Shown: piece by piece, positions 377 through 10,440 of the stretch
How positions within the stretch are numbered: the stretch's first letter is position 1
Layout of the letters: the number at the start of each line of letters is the position of its first letter
DNA from: a bacterium
GTDB taxonomy: Bacteria > UBA9089 > CG2-30-40-21 > SBAY01
Direction of reading: 5' to 3'
Assembly: GCA_040757115.1 (NCBI GenBank)
Contig: JBFLYA010000133.1
Span: 1 to 10,440 of the forward strand
Length of the DNA stretch: 10,440 bases
Program-made: the position numbers and the translations under genes
The notes under the pieces: generated by a model
Seen by the model: the letters and a program-made list of their open reading frames with translations, nothing else
Told to the model about the DNA's origin: nothing
The model's database searches: none

Positions 377-1303
377 ATGATAATTTACATTATTAAACGA
401 TTATTACTAACCATTCCTGTTTTATTCGGGATAGCGACGATTACTTTTATCCTGATTTATGTTATCCCCGGCGACCCTACTTCAGGTATAGTTGGAGAAA
501 GGGTCAATGCCCAAACCCTTCAACAGATACGGGAAGAAATGGGACTTGATAAACCATTCCATATTCAATATTTCTGTTATCTGAATAGAGTCATCCATGG
601 TAATTTAGGTCGGTCTTTTTCAACTAAACAGGAAGTTACACAAACAATCATTGAGAAATTCCCAAATACCTTAAAATTGGCAATATCGGCGATGGTTATT
701 GCTATCTTATTGGGTCTCCCAATGGGAATTTTTGCGGCGGTTACCAGAAATTCCATCTGGGATAGATTAACTATGGTTTCAGCCGTATTGGGTATTTCTA
801 CGCCGGTATTCTGGTTTGGACTACTTCTTATTTTTATCTTTTCGATTAAACTTGGCTGGCTACCAGCCTCAGGAATGGGTGATGGAGATATTCTTTATCT
901 TATTTTACCCGCGACTACTCTGGGATTACGCTCGGTGGCTTTAATTGCCCGAATTACAAGGACATCAATATTAGAAATATTAGGAGAAGATTATATTAGA
1001 ACCGCAAGGGCAAAAGGATTAAAAGAAAGTGTGGTCATATTTAAACATACCTTAAAAAATAGCCTTATCCCGATTGTGACAATTATTGGATTAGACTTTG
1101 GAAGTTATCTTAATGGTTCAGTTCTGACAGAAACAGTATTTGGCTGGCCAGGACTTGGCAGATATGCGGTTGAAGGAATTATAAAAAGGGACATACCAGT
1201 AGTGATGGGTGTTGTGCTGTTTGGGGCTTTTGTCTTTGTTATCGTTAATTTAATCGTAGATATTTTATATCATTTTCTAAATCCAAAAATCAGGGTAAAA
1301 TGA
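377..1303 (+). CDS. Peptide/nickel ABC transporter permease, DppB/OppB family
   Basis: One of the two inner-membrane permease subunits of a Dpp/Opp-type importer for peptides or nickel chelates. The 308-aa length is normal for DppB-like proteins. The first helix (about residues 9-30) is followed by the typical PGDP at 31-34. The ATPase-docking EAA loop is at about 203-235 (EDYIRTARAKGL then IP), and the family signature TETVFGWPGLGRYA is at 251-264. The N-terminus MIIYIIKRLLLTIP matches the usual family start, supporting 377. There is little Shine-Dalgarno sequence (GGGA just before ATG), and the promoter at 339-367 places the transcript start only a few bases upstream. The stop overlaps an ATGA that is also part of the target duplication of the element that follows. 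No binding protein or ATPase gene is next to it, so substrate is unknown. Confidence 0.95.
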   Translation: MIIYIIKRLLLTIPVLFGIATITFILIYVIPGDPTSGIVGERVNAQTLQQIREEMGLDKPFHIQYFCYLNRVIHGNLGRSFSTKQEVTQTIIEKFPNTLKLAISAMVIAILLGLPMGIFAAVTRNSIWDRLTMVSAVLGISTPVFWFGLLLIFIFSIKLGWLPASGMGDGDILYLILPATTLGLRSVALIARITRTSILEILGEDYIRTARAKGLKESVVIFKHTLKNSLIPIVTIIGLDFGSYLNGSVLTETVFGWPGLGRYAVEGIIKRDIPVVMGVVLFGAFVFVIVNLIVDILYHFLNPKIRVK

Positions 1304-1307
1304 AAAG

Positions 1308-1518
1308 GTAACTATTCACCGCAGAGGCACAGAGGACGCAGAGAAGATGAATATAAATGAATTAATCTGTAGACAAATAAATTCCAATGTAGAATTTGGA
1401 ATTTAGGATTTCAAAGTATGTGCTAAAACATAGAATGAGAAGAATGGTTTTAGGTTTAGAAGAGTAAAGATTACTCTCTGCCTTTCTGTGGTGAAATATA
1501 ATAAGGCTGAATAATTAC
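1308..1518. mobile_element. Non-autonomous element (MITE-like), family 1 copy A, inside the permease operon
   Basis: A 211-bp insert with ends GTAACTATTC (1308-1317) and GAATAATTAC (1509-1518), inverted repeats matching at 9 of 10 bases. Inner left sequence ACCGCAGAGGCACAGAGG is mirrored in degenerate form at 1476-1495. It is flanked by an exact 8-bp direct repeat ATGAAAAG (1300-1307 and 1519-1526), the mark of transposition. It encodes nothing. IS66-family elements are known to have GTAA ends and 8-bp duplications, so an IS66-type transposase is a plausible mobiliser (inference). The insertion separates two genes that previously overlapped. Confidence 0.8.
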
Positions 1519-2343
1519 ATGAAAAGATTATATAAAAACAAGACAACTTTAATAGGACTAATTATAATCACTGTTTTCATTATTCTTGCTATTTGTGCAC
1601 CGATAATTGCTCCGTATTCCCCTTATGAAATTAACCTGGAACAAAGGCTGAAATCTCCAGATTGTCAACATCTTTGTGGCACAGATAATCTTGGACGAGA
1701 TATATTCTCGCGGATTTTATATGGTGCCCGAATTTCATTAACCGTGGGCACGATAGCGACTTTTTTAGCCATGTTTATTGGTTTTGTCTTTGGAGGTATC
1801 GGAGGTTATGTCGGTGGTAAGATAGATAAATTGATTATTGCCTTAACAGACATTATGTTAGCCTTTCCTGGGTTACTTCTGGCAATTGGAGTTTCGGTCG
1901 CAGTTGGACCAGGTTTAATTACTCTTTATATTGCTTTAGCTACCGTTGGTTGGGCAGAATTTGCCAGATTAATCAGAGGAATAATTTTATCTCTTAAAGA
2001 ACAGGATTATATCGAGGCGGCAAGAGTCATTGGCGCCTCTGATGTCCGGATAATTTTAAGACATATCCTGCCAAATATCTTTCCGATAATTATCGTTGTC
2101 GCTACTTTAAGGATTGGTGGATATATTTTAAGTGAGGCATCTTTAAGTTTTCTTGGTTTAGGTGCACAACCACCGACTCCAAGTTGGGGTTCAATCGTCA
2201 GCATTGGAAGTAATTTTATCCTTACCGCACCCTGGTTTTCCATTTTCCCTGGACTGGCTATTGCAACAGTAGTGATTGGTTTCAATCTATCAGGAGACGG
2301 ACTAAGAGACATTCTTGACCCAAAATTAAAGGGAAAAATTTGA
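1519..2343 (+). CDS. Peptide/nickel ABC transporter permease, DppC/OppC family
   Basis: Partner permease of the upstream gene, together forming the membrane channel of a Dpp/Opp importer. The 274-aa length is typical. A first helix at about 11-31 is followed by the family motif GTDNLGRDIFSRILYGAR at 54-71. The EAA loop is at about 161-186 (EQDYIEAARVIGAS, then ILPN), and the C-terminal signature SFLGLGAQPPTPSWG at 210-224. The start codon lies in the right copy of the duplication ATGAAAAG left by the inserted element. Without that element the upstream stop and this start would overlap as ATGA, with AGGG (1292-1295) as ribosome site. Now that site is over 200 bases away and only a weak AAGG (1503-1506) precedes the start, so translational coupling has been lost. 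No ATPase genes follow within the window. Confidence 0.95.
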   Translation: MKRLYKNKTTLIGLIIITVFIILAICAPIIAPYSPYEINLEQRLKSPDCQHLCGTDNLGRDIFSRILYGARISLTVGTIATFLAMFIGFVFGGIGGYVGGKIDKLIIALTDIMLAFPGLLLAIGVSVAVGPGLITLYIALATVGWAEFARLIRGIILSLKEQDYIEAARVIGASDVRIILRHILPNIFPIIIVVATLRIGGYILSEASLSFLGLGAQPPTPSWGSIVSIGSNFILTAPWFSIFPGLAIATVVIGFNLSGDGLRDILDPKLKGKI

Positions 2344-2420: not shown

Positions 2421-2656
2421 GTAACCGTTCACCGCAGAGACGCAAGAGTTCGCAGAGAGGAAAATATCTTTTTTTTTCGTGTTTTTCGCGTTTTTCGGTG
2501 TTTAAAAAGGCTTAAAAACAGTTAGTCGAAAGTCCGTATTAAAAGATTAATAAACAACAAAAGACCCGCAATGCACAAAAAAAGGAAATTTCTGTTTCTG
2601 GTGAATAGATTTTAATTTTTTCTCTGCGTCTCTGTGTCTCTGCGGTGAATAGTTAC
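2421..2656. mobile_element. Non-autonomous element (MITE-like), family 1 copy B
   Basis: A 236-bp insert with long inverted ends: GTAACCGTTCACCGCAGAGA on the left, and on the right the complement of GTAACTATTCACCGCAGAGA. It is flanked by an exact 8-bp direct repeat AAAGTAAG (2413-2420 and 2657-2664). Ends and duplication length match the copy at 1308-1518, so they are one family, but the interiors differ. There is no coding capacity. Together with the promoter and hairpin around it, this accounts for the gene-free stretch 2344-2722. Confidence 0.8.
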
Positions 2657-2958: not shown

Positions 2959-3324
2959 GGGTTCTGCAAGGAGGAGATAACTAAGAGTTAGACCTGAAAT
3001 TAAATCAAATATCAAATATTAAAATGCAAAATTACAAATCAAATTTCAAAAAGGAAGGAGCATGGTTTCTCAAAGAGTTGGAGGAATTTGGTAATATCTT
3101 TGCTTCAAGTATTTTAACGCTGAAATGTAGTAGATAGTTGATAGTTTATAGTTTATAGTTGAAGGACTATACACTATAAACTATACACTATACACTATAA
3201 ACTATACACTATAAACCCTAAACTATAAACGAGTTTTGCATTTTGATCTTTGGAGGAAATTGATAAGAATAAAGGTTTTAAATACCCGCTTAAAAATACA
3301 GTTTCCTGGTTTTGCAGAACTCTA
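2959..3324. mobile_element. Non-autonomous element (MITE-like), family 2 copy A
   Basis: A 366-bp insert with ends GGGTTCTGCAA on the left and TTTTGCAGAAC plus TCTA on the right, giving a terminal inverted repeat GGTTCTGCAA. It is flanked by an exact 11-bp direct repeat CAACCTCAAAA (2948-2958 and 3325-3335). Its interior holds a 7-base-phased arm (3131-3160), a GAAGG turn and a complementary (ACTATAA/ACTATAC)n arm (3166-3230) that would fold as a long hairpin. A second copy of the same length is at 6900-7267. The right duplication stops one base before the accD ribosome site, so the insertion sits in the accD leader without damaging it. No transposase is encoded. Confidence 0.8.
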
Positions 3325-3350
3325 CAACCTCAAAATAAAGGAGACATAAA

Positions 3351-6899: not shown

Positions 6900-7267
6900 T
6901 AGGGTTCTGCAAAATAGGATTTGGGGAAGACGACAAATAAATATCAAATATCAAAATGCAAAATTACAAATCAAATTTCAAAAAGGACTTCAAGTATTTT
7001 AACGTTGAAAGGAAAGAGATAATTTTACTGAACTTTGGCAAATTTGCAAATTCTCTGAAAAACTTAAAACTAAAAGCGTAAAACCAAAAACCGTTGATAG
7101 TTGATAGTTGATAGTAGATAGTTGATAGTTGAAGGACTATAGACTATAAACCATAAACTATAAACTATAAACGAGTTTTGCATTTTGCTCTTTGGAGGTA
7201 ATTGATAAAAATAGAGGTTTTAAATACCTGCTTAAAAACTACAGTTTCTTGGTTTTGCAGAACCATA
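6900..7267. mobile_element. Non-autonomous element (MITE-like), family 2 copy B
   Basis: A 368-bp insert with ends TAGGGTTCTGCAAAA on the left and TTTTGCAGAACCATA on the right, inverted repeats with one mismatch. It is flanked by an exact 12-bp direct repeat ATAATCTCATTG (6888-6899 and 7268-7279). It shares with 2959-3324 the ends, an AT-rich left block with AAAATGCAAAATTACAAATC, the CTTCAAGTATTTTAACG block, a GATAGTT tandem arm (7093-7130), the GAAGG turn and the right block from ACGAGTTTTGCATTTTG on. The spacer between blocks differs in order and length. It is in the same orientation as the other copy and encodes nothing. Confidence 0.8.
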
Positions 7268-7767: not shown

Positions 7768-8517
7768 ATGAGTAACGACATATCCAGTAAGGATCTAAAA
7801 CTTCTATGGTCAAGAAGTGGAAATAGATGTGCATTCCCCGGATGCAATAGTCTCTTGATTAAAGATAGGACAAGAGGGGATAAGGAGGCTATTATTGGAG
7901 ATATGGCTCATATTGAGGGTGAGAAACCAGGTTCAGCAAGATATAATCCTGATATGACTGAGAGAGAAAGGAGTTCGTATTCCAATCGTATTGTACTTTG
8001 TAGAAATCATCATAAAATAGTAGATGATCAACCACAAGAATATTCTGTTCAAAGATTGAAAGAGATGAAAAATAAACATGAAGAATGGATTGAAGATTCT
8101 ACCGAAAAAGAAATTTTAAATATTACTTTTGCAGAATTGAGTATTGTCACAAAATATCTCATTTCTGATCAATCAGAGCCGCCTGATAGATACGACATTA
8201 TACCGCCTAAGGATAAAATAAAGAAAAATATGTTATCTTCAAGAATTGAACGGTCAATAGTGAATGGGATGACACAAGTAAAGCAAGTAGCTGATTTCAT
8301 TAATAAAGTTCCAGATATTGAATTCAGTGATAGACTTAAAGCAGGCTTTGTAAACGAATATAATAAATTGAAAAACATTGATGGATTTATGGGTGATGAT
8401 TTATTCGATGCCCTCGTAGGTTTTGCTTCAGGAGAATCTAGTGATTTTAAACAGAAAGCTGCAGGATTAGCAGTTTTGGTATACTTATTTGAGAAATGTG
8501 AGGTGTTTGAACAATGA
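7768..8517 (+). CDS. HNH protein with ABC-3C C-terminal domain (probable effector)
   Basis: A 249-aa protein with two parts. Residues about 10-85 form an HNH nuclease fold: CAFPGC (C21, C26), AHIEG with H48, N73 and the CRNHH motif at 78-82 with C78 and H81/H82 as likely metal and catalytic residues. Residues about 145-249 are helical and end in AVLVYLFEKCEVFE, which resembles the C-terminal domain that links effectors to ABC-three-component systems. Inferred role: a DNA-cutting effector controlled by the ATPase partner, either against invaders or against the host. The ribosome site is weak (GGTG, 7757-7760). The gene overlaps the next by ATGA (8514-8517), so translation is coupled. Expression may come from the promoter at 7462-7491. 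Assignment of the C-terminal part is by eye, so less certain than HNH. Confidence 0.82.
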   Translation: MSNDISSKDLKLLWSRSGNRCAFPGCNSLLIKDRTRGDKEAIIGDMAHIEGEKPGSARYNPDMTERERSSYSNRIVLCRNHHKIVDDQPQEYSVQRLKEMKNKHEEWIEDSTEKEILNITFAELSIVTKYLISDQSEPPDRYDIIPPKDKIKKNMLSSRIERSIVNGMTQVKQVADFINKVPDIEFSDRLKAGFVNEYNKLKNIDGFMGDDLFDALVGFASGESSDFKQKAAGLAVLVYLFEKCEVFEQ

Positions 8518-8741
8518 TACTCCCAAACAAGCATATTCAAATATCAAACTCTATATTAAATCTGGGGGCAATTCTATTAGACAATATTACAACAAACCAA
8601 ACTGTCAGTCTACTCTGGGACAAAGTAAGGGAATTATCTGAGGTAAGAAATTTTGAAAGATTTACTTTGGGGTTAGATTTATTATTCATTTTAGGTATTG
8701 TTGAATTGAAAGATGGAATAATTAGGAGGGTTGAAAAATGA
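8514..8741 (+). CDS. ABC-3C middle component (MC6-like), small protein
   Basis: A 75-aa protein without membrane segment or catalytic motif. Its opening MILPNKHIQISNSILNLGA, the LLWDKVRE segment at 33-40 and the helical FTLGLDLLFILGIVEL at 50-65 resemble middle-component type 6 of ABC-3C systems, thought to bridge ATPase and effector, possibly through a small winged-helix-like fold. It overlaps the HNH gene by ATGA at the start and the ATPase gene by ATGA at the end. Such double overlap implies a fixed stoichiometric complex. Position between HNH and DUF2326-type genes is itself strong evidence for the role. Confidence 0.78.
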   Translation: MILPNKHIQISNSILNLGAILLDNITTNQTVSLLWDKVRELSEVRNFERFTLGLDLLFILGIVELKDGIIRRVEK

Positions 8742-10440
8742 TTCATTCAATAGAGTGTGATAATCCCTCATTTAAAAAAATCGTTTTCAAAGATGGGCTT
8801 AATGTTATACTCGCTGAAAGAACTAAAGAAGCGACTATAAAAGATTCAAGAAATGGTCTTGGAAAATCTACCTTAATAGAAATAATCCATTTTTGCCTGG
8901 GTGCTGACAAGAGAGAGACATTGAAGAATCCACGGTTGGATAATTGGACATTTATACTAAATTTAGACTTGGGTGGGAAAACATATTCTATATCCCGTAA
9001 TACCGCAGACAATAATAAGATAATTATTGAAGGAGATTGTTCCGATTGGAAGATTAAACCTACTATTGATGAGAAATCCAGGAAGCAAATTATTTCCAGG
9101 AATGATTGGAAGAAATGCTTAGGTATTTTAATGTTCAACCTTCAGCCGATTTATGACGAATTTGAATATGTACCGACTTTTAGAAGCTTAATTTCATACT
9201 TCATTAGACAAAATGGACAAAGAGGCGGTTTTCTTACCCCTTTTCAGCAATACAAGAGCCAACGAGAATGGGATATTCAAATCAATAATGCTTTTTTACT
9301 TAGTCTTGGTTGGGAATATGCCTCGAAACTACAAGTTATTAAAGATAGAGTAAAATTTTTGAACCATCTCAAAAAAGAAGCACAGTCTGGTTTACTTGCA
9401 AATCTTATGGGAAACATTGGAGAATTAGAAGCACTGAAAATTAGGATAGAGGCACAAGTTCAAGATGAGGACTCCCAATTAAGAAGTTTTAAGGTTCATA
9501 ATCAGTATAACCAGATTGAAAGAAATGCCGATAATTTGACAAAAAATATACATGAATTAGTTAATCTGAATATGACTGATAGAATGATTCTTGAACATTA
9601 TGAAGGGAGTTTGAGTGAGGAGAAGGATGCAAGAACCGACAAAATCATCAAGATTTACAAAGAGGCTGGATTAGTATTCATGGATATAGTAACAAAAAAA
9701 ATCGATGAAGTTCTTGATTTCCATCGTAAAGTAGTAGCCAACAGAAAGGATTTCTTAGCAAACGAGATGGATAGAATTAGAGGCAATATTTCTCGTCGAG
9801 AAGATGAAATAAAAAAAATGACATCCCAACGAACAGAGTTAATGCAGATTTTACAAAGTCATGGTGCATTAGAGGAATTTAACGAATTACAGAAGAATCA
9901 TCAGAATAGTGTCTCTCAGTTAAAGGATATATCCATAAGATTAGAAAATTTAAAGAAATTTGAACAGGGAAAGAGTGGAATATCTATTGAACAGGAACTT
10001 CTTCATCAACAGGCAAACAGAGATTTGAGTGAGAGAGAGTTTCAAAGAAGAGATGCAATTTTAACATTTAATGAAAGTTCAGAAGCACTTTATGAAGTAC
10101 CTGGAACACTATCCATAGATTTTACGAAAAAAGGATTTAAATTTGGAATTAATATAGAACGTTCAGGCAGCCACGGTATAAGTAACATGAAAATTTTTTG
10201 CTATGATTTAATGTTGGCAAAATTGTGGGCAAAAAGAACGAAGACACCAATATTCTTAATTCATGACAGCAATATTTTTGATGGTGTCGATGAACGACAG
10301 AGGGCATTAGCTCTACAATTGGCAGCATCTGAATCTTCTAAACATGGATTTCAGTATATTTGTACCTTCAACTCAGACATGATTCCCCAAAAAGATTTTA
10401 GAGGCGATTTCGATTTTTCCAGTAATGTAGTCAGGAAACT
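8738..10440 (+). CDS. DUF2326-type ABC/SMC-like ATPase of the ABC-3C system (3' end outside window)
   Basis: At least 567 residues, open to the window edge. The N-terminal ATP-binding lobe has a Walker A loop at 38-45 (RNGLGKST) followed by IEIIHFCLG. A long, charged, coiled-coil-rich middle (about 215-440) separates it from the C-terminal lobe. There SHGISNMKIFCYDLML is in the ABC-signature region and IFLIHDSNIFDGVDERQ (about 505-521) is the Walker B region, with HDS in place of the usual DE, as I recall for DUF2326 proteins. The final VRK is probably about 20 residues from the true end, as the family normally closes soon after this. Ribosome site AGGAGGG (8724-8730) supports the start, which overlaps the previous stop by ATGA. 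Related to YydD and Rad50/SMC-type ATPases. It probably senses DNA or a nucleoprotein state and licenses the HNH partner (inference). Confidence 0.88.
   Translation, partial: MIHSIECDNPSFKKIVFKDGLNVILAERTKEATIKDSRNGLGKSTLIEIIHFCLGADKRETLKNPRLDNWTFILNLDLGGKTYSISRNTADNNKIIIEGDCSDWKIKPTIDEKSRKQIISRNDWKKCLGILMFNLQPIYDEFEYVPTFRSLISYFIRQNGQRGGFLTPFQQYKSQREWDIQINNAFLLSLGWEYASKLQVIKDRVKFLNHLKKEAQSGLLANLMGNIGELEALKIRIEAQVQDEDSQLRSFKVHNQYNQIERNADNLTKNIHELVNLNMTDRMILEHYEGSLSEEKDARTDKIIKIYKEAGLVFMDIVTKKIDEVLDFHRKVVANRKDFLANEMDRIRGNISRREDEIKKMTSQRTELMQILQSHGALEEFNELQKNHQNSVSQLKDISIRLENLKKFEQGKSGISIEQELLHQQANRDLSEREFQRRDAILTFNESSEALYEVPGTLSIDFTKKGFKFGINIERSGSHGISNMKIFCYDLMLAKLWAKRTKTPIFLIHDSNIFDGVDERQRALALQLAASESSKHGFQYICTFNSDMIPQKDFRGDFDFSSNVVRK

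Follow-up and report, generated by a model that had tools for sequence, protein, structure and literature searches.

A 211-bp MITE between the dppB- and dppC-like permease genes of one bacterial genus and its probable insertion into an ATGA overlap

The stretch of DNA analysed here (the window) comprises the 10,440 nt of contig JBFLYA010000133.1, from the bacterial assembly GCA_040757115.1, and carries a dppB-like and a dppC-like ABC peptide permease gene, which are separated by an insert with an exact direct repeat, ATGAAAAG, on either side (Table 1). Within positions 1200-1650, no other direct repeat reaches 8 nt. The stop codon of the dppB-like gene (TGA, 1301-1303) lies inside the left copy and the start codon of the dppC-like gene (ATG, 1519-1521) inside the right copy, and the distance from stop to start is now 215 nt. 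When the flanks are joined in silico, CAGGGTAAAATGAAAAGATTATAT is obtained, in which the two genes share an ATGA overlap with AGGG 4 bases 5' of the ATG. An earlier note on this DNA had located the 8-bp repeat, the insert between its copies and the stop and start codons, and all of these coordinates were reproduced from the sequence; its ATGA, to be rebuilt by removing the insert and one repeat, was seen on joining the flanks, and the two permease genes that it had described as intact have complete ORFs in which Pfam permease domains are found.

Table 1. Features of the dppB-dppC region of the window.
Feature	Position	Strand	Evidence
dppB-like ABC peptide permease gene, intact, stop in left target duplication	377..1303	+	ORF 308 aa; PF00528 (BPD_transp_1), PF19300
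AGGG, presumed original dppC ribosome-binding site, 4 nt before old ATG at 1300	1292..1295	+	sequence; presumed role
left ATGAAAAG copy, 8-bp target site duplication	1300..1307	+	repeat and family boundary comparison
relict start codon ATG AAA AGG TAA (MKR*); TAA from element end GTAAC	1300..1311	+	sequence, translation
211-bp MITE, left end GTAACTATTCACCGCAGAG, right end CTGAATAATTAC	1308..1518	+	genome repeat matches; same insert in G001
AAGG within the right end of the element, 12 nt upstream of the dppC ATG; may serve as a weak substitute ribosome-binding site	1503..1506	+	sequence; presumed role
right ATGAAAAG copy, holds dppC start codon	1519..1526	+	repeat and family boundary comparison
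dppC-like ABC peptide permease gene, intact	1519..2343	+	ORF 274 aa; OppC_N (PF12911) and BPD_transp_1 (PF00528)
second MITE, same end type, 236 bp; perfect 8-bp duplication AAAGTAAG at 2413-2420 and 2657-2664	2421..2656	+	end pairing, flank comparison

Elsewhere in the window, two copies of another repeat (2961-3330 and 6902-7265), with GGTTCTGCAA / TTGCAGAAC ends and tandem ACTATAAACTATAC stretches, flank the accD and lnt-glycosyltransferase genes. Three adjacent genes at 7768-10440 show ABC-three-component (ABC-3C) signatures, namely CTD10 (below cutoff), an MC6/MC7 middle component and a DUF2326 ATPase-like protein, and are likely to form a defence system that is truncated where the contig stops.

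The insert begins with GTAACTATTCACCGC and ends, as reverse complement, with GTAATTATTCAGCC, both ends being of the form GTAAYTATTCA. Its terminal inverted repeats, GTAACTATTCA and GTAATTATTCA, are identical at 10 of 11 positions and diverge further inwards, where only 12 of 25 positions agree, and it harbors no ORF of at least 80 aa. A search with the insert gave 58 matches in the genome of the window (G000), 57 of them besides the window copy, and the end pattern GTAAYYRTTCACCGCAGAG, which describes the CCGCAGAG-type ends, occurs 202 times in that genome with at most one mismatch, the reversed-pattern control giving 0; these G000 counts come from searches and fetched stretches. Among the family end pairs in the fetched G000 stretches, 18/102 have an 8-bp flank match (at most one mismatch) at the exact boundary, and only 0-2 do when the register is moved by 1-3 bases. 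Exact 8-bp target duplications were found at 31 distinct family insertions in the loci read across the order, a number that includes the insertion in the window and counts it once, since one of the 32 rows listed was the same insertion in a second genome of the genus, G001. Being short, with inverted ends, a duplication of fixed length and many dispersed copies, the 211-bp insert is a member of a high-copy MITE family. The transposition with 8-bp target duplication that the earlier note had proposed is thus borne out by the exact duplication and by the boundary enrichment in the repeat family.

A sibling copy of the element on G000 contig C14 (L121, C14:3002-3634) matches the insert at 88-93% over two stretches. 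A different element, with GGTGGTGTC inverted ends and what looks like an 8-bp duplication, AATAAATT, interrupts it. The right end of this sibling is without the terminus GGCTGAATAATTAC that is present in the window copy. In G001, a different, GTAAGCGTTCAGCC-ended sequence lies near the site of the window's second MITE, 3' of dppC.

The family's GTAAC..TTCA ends are common to IS66-type elements within the same order. An IS66 transposase (PF03050) on G000 contig C277 sits between inverted GTAACCGTTCAGGTA ends, another on contig C299 of G004 sits between GTAACCGTTCACA ends, and many MITE copies have at one end the GTAACCGTTCAGGT sequence found at the C277 IS66 ends. IS66 elements have ends that start with GTAA and target duplications of 8 bp (PMC11946415, PMC12888890), and the MITE family has both the 5'-GTAA ends and the 8-bp duplication. 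Unlike IS66 elements, the insert is only 211 bp long, lacks a transposase gene and has terminal repeats of just 11 bp. The full-length IS66-type copies on C277 and C299 showed no clear direct 8-bp duplication at their ends, and two in-frame stops interrupt the C277 copy. For these reasons, it is from the identity of the ends that we infer mobilisation of the MITE, probably by an IS66 transposase.

The insertion is shared within the genus, as G001 has the identical insert with the same duplication between two complete permease genes. A comparison of G000 with G001 gave a dN/dS of about 0.32 for dppB (estimated from only 3 + 3 changes) and 0.09 for dppC; the insertion is therefore older than the split of these two genomes, and both genes have been under constraint. 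In other genomes the junction is tight, with the dppB stop and dppC start at a gap of -4 (ATGA) in G004 and G006, which belong to the same order, in G012, from the same phylum, and in a number of distant genomes, the overlapping orthologues within the order having 62-68% protein identity and the further relatives lying beyond it. The gap is +1 in G014 and short in most other genomes compared, and +215 is found in G000 and G001 only, i.e. in one genus. In neither the genus nor the family was an empty site found, and in G002, of the same family, the 83 nt between the two genes are taken up by an unrelated repeat, for which the G002 genome gave 60 matches. A 57-nt spacer lies at the junction in G007, of the same order, and no further copy of it was found among 40 candidates scored in that genome. 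The dppB and dppC orthologues of G007 (L036, contig C167) have one in-frame stop each (TGA, TAA), and are possibly pseudogenes or assembly errors. Searches for dppB in G003 and G005 gave no match at E <= 1e-60. The ancestral ATGA overlap predicted in the earlier note is consequently supported by orthologues, as the nearest uninterrupted relatives (G004, G006 and G012) overlap.

These comparisons also bear on whether the spacer could be an old regulatory region of dppC, such as a leader or attenuator, flanked by the 8-mer by chance. The spacer RNA does fold better than shuffled sequences (-52.1 kcal/mol, z -3.2), but a good fold is expected of a MITE and is explained by the inverted CCGCAGAG-type segments common to the repeat family. 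No Rfam match was obtained at gathering score, duplications are enriched at the exact family boundaries, and the 215-nt spacer is absent outside the genus among the genomes compared. An old regulatory leader is thus refuted by its absence in relatives and by membership in the repeat family, and we give it almost no credence.

The account that we regard as very probably correct is that the MITE inserted once, in the ancestor of the genus, into an ATGA overlap of dppB and dppC, with a duplication that spared both genes. A non-autonomous 211-bp element, probably mobilised by IS66, would have entered at a staggered cut whose repair duplicated the 8 bp holding the whole overlap, so that the dppB stop stayed in the left copy and the dppC start in the right one, and purifying selection would then have preserved this insertion, harmless as it was to both genes. 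The 8-bp duplication exceeds the 4-bp overlap in length, so that any target covering the whole ATGA would leave each gene with its own codon, and five insertion registers would permit such sparing. All element ends with an ATGA 0-4 bases before them were located in 8 genomes of the order, and nearly all such ends in G000, G001 and G005 were read, among which no second case of both ORFs intact across a split overlap was found. Only 1 of the 31 insertions examined leaves a gene end and a gene start in the two copies. A preference of the family for stop/start overlaps was accordingly rejected, the insertion in the window being unique among those read; the lack of a second one argues against targeting and for a chance hit kept by selection.

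The consequences for expression are proposed from sequence features. No promoter or terminator above shuffle expectation was found within the insert, and co-transcription of dppB and dppC is thus the default expectation. The earlier note had described two separated cistrons, which holds for the geometry of translation alone, given an insert without detected promoter or terminator. The former AGGG and ATG still stand at 1292-1302, with the old start now reading MKR*, and the only motif resembling a ribosome site before the present dppC ATG is the distant, element-derived AAGG, 12 nt upstream. From its position 215 nt past the dppB stop, dppC would probably initiate independently on the same transcript, and it is plausible that any translational coupling was lost and the DppB:DppC subunit balance altered.

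It could be argued that the insertion was adaptive, selected for a changed DppB:DppC balance or for uncoupled translation of dppC, as it is retained in both genus members, the old start now reads MKR*, and spacers lie at this junction in three lineages of the order (G000/G001, G002 and G007). Neutrality suffices to explain this pattern, however, no promoter or terminator rises above chance, and a single insertion of this kind in 31 speaks against targeting and against repeated recruitment of overlaps, which makes an adaptive origin unlikely. We favour, with good but not complete confidence, a slightly harmful or neutral insertion that drifted in a repeat-overrun genome and was tolerated since the dppC start was usable. 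The very high repeat load, the nested insertions in the sibling copy and the different repeats at the same junction of a relative are all in keeping with drift, although sequence alone does not separate it from adaptation.

The repeat that fills the junction in G002 ends in AGGAAAAACGATGAAAATRAACCGTCCC (L228 / L085 around 1455-1600), and this end includes an AGG resembling a Shine-Dalgarno sequence, followed by an ATG and the codons of MK[IM]NRP. It occurs 29 times in G002 and 6 times in G003, and opens host genes in many places (dppC, EPSP synthase and others, starting MK[IM]N), including prepilin-like, LivM-type permease-like, undecaprenyl diphosphate synthase-like, glycosyltransferase-like and NADH dehydrogenase subunit-like ORFs; the names of these repeat-opened genes were assigned by sequence inspection, except for EPSP synthase, O-antigen ligase and archease. 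The same repeat forms gene starts in G000/G001 as well as in G002/G003, with further loci at L210, L211, L213, L216, L219, L222, L224-L226, L232 and L238. This repeat end may therefore act as a portable translation start. A tentative and rather doubtful generalisation would be that the dppB-dppC overlap of this order repeatedly accepts, or domesticates, unrelated repeats, with mobile-element ends serving as portable translation starts. If that were true, one genus would have obtained both codons through the 8-bp duplication, and the repeat of its sister genus would have brought ribosome site, start and first codons.

A MITE in an undisrupted operon is already known from Chunjie, of Geobacter uraniireducens Rf4 (Chen et al. 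2008 Genetics 179:2291), which, as cited in PMC10969869, is inserted in an ABC-transporter operon with its structure undisturbed; it is likened here to the insert in the window by that description. BIME, ERIC, Correia and BOX are likewise bacterial repeats inserted in operons, where they can alter expression (reviewed in PMC3049150 and PMC10969869), and resemble the MITE as small folded repeats within transcribed regions, but they belong to other sequence families, and any regulatory effect of the MITE would be conjectural. The literature yielded nothing on the repeat motif and, in a limited search that is weak evidence of novelty, nothing relevant on a transposon splitting a stop/start overlap.

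The insertion in the window is a single one among hundreds in a repeat-rich genome, and represents a neat example of an ordinary process. The junction offers a natural before/after pair on whether the ATGA overlap matters for permease balance. More generally, a target duplication longer than the overlap lets a transposon part overlapping genes without damage, which is one route by which spacers may arise in closely packed operons.
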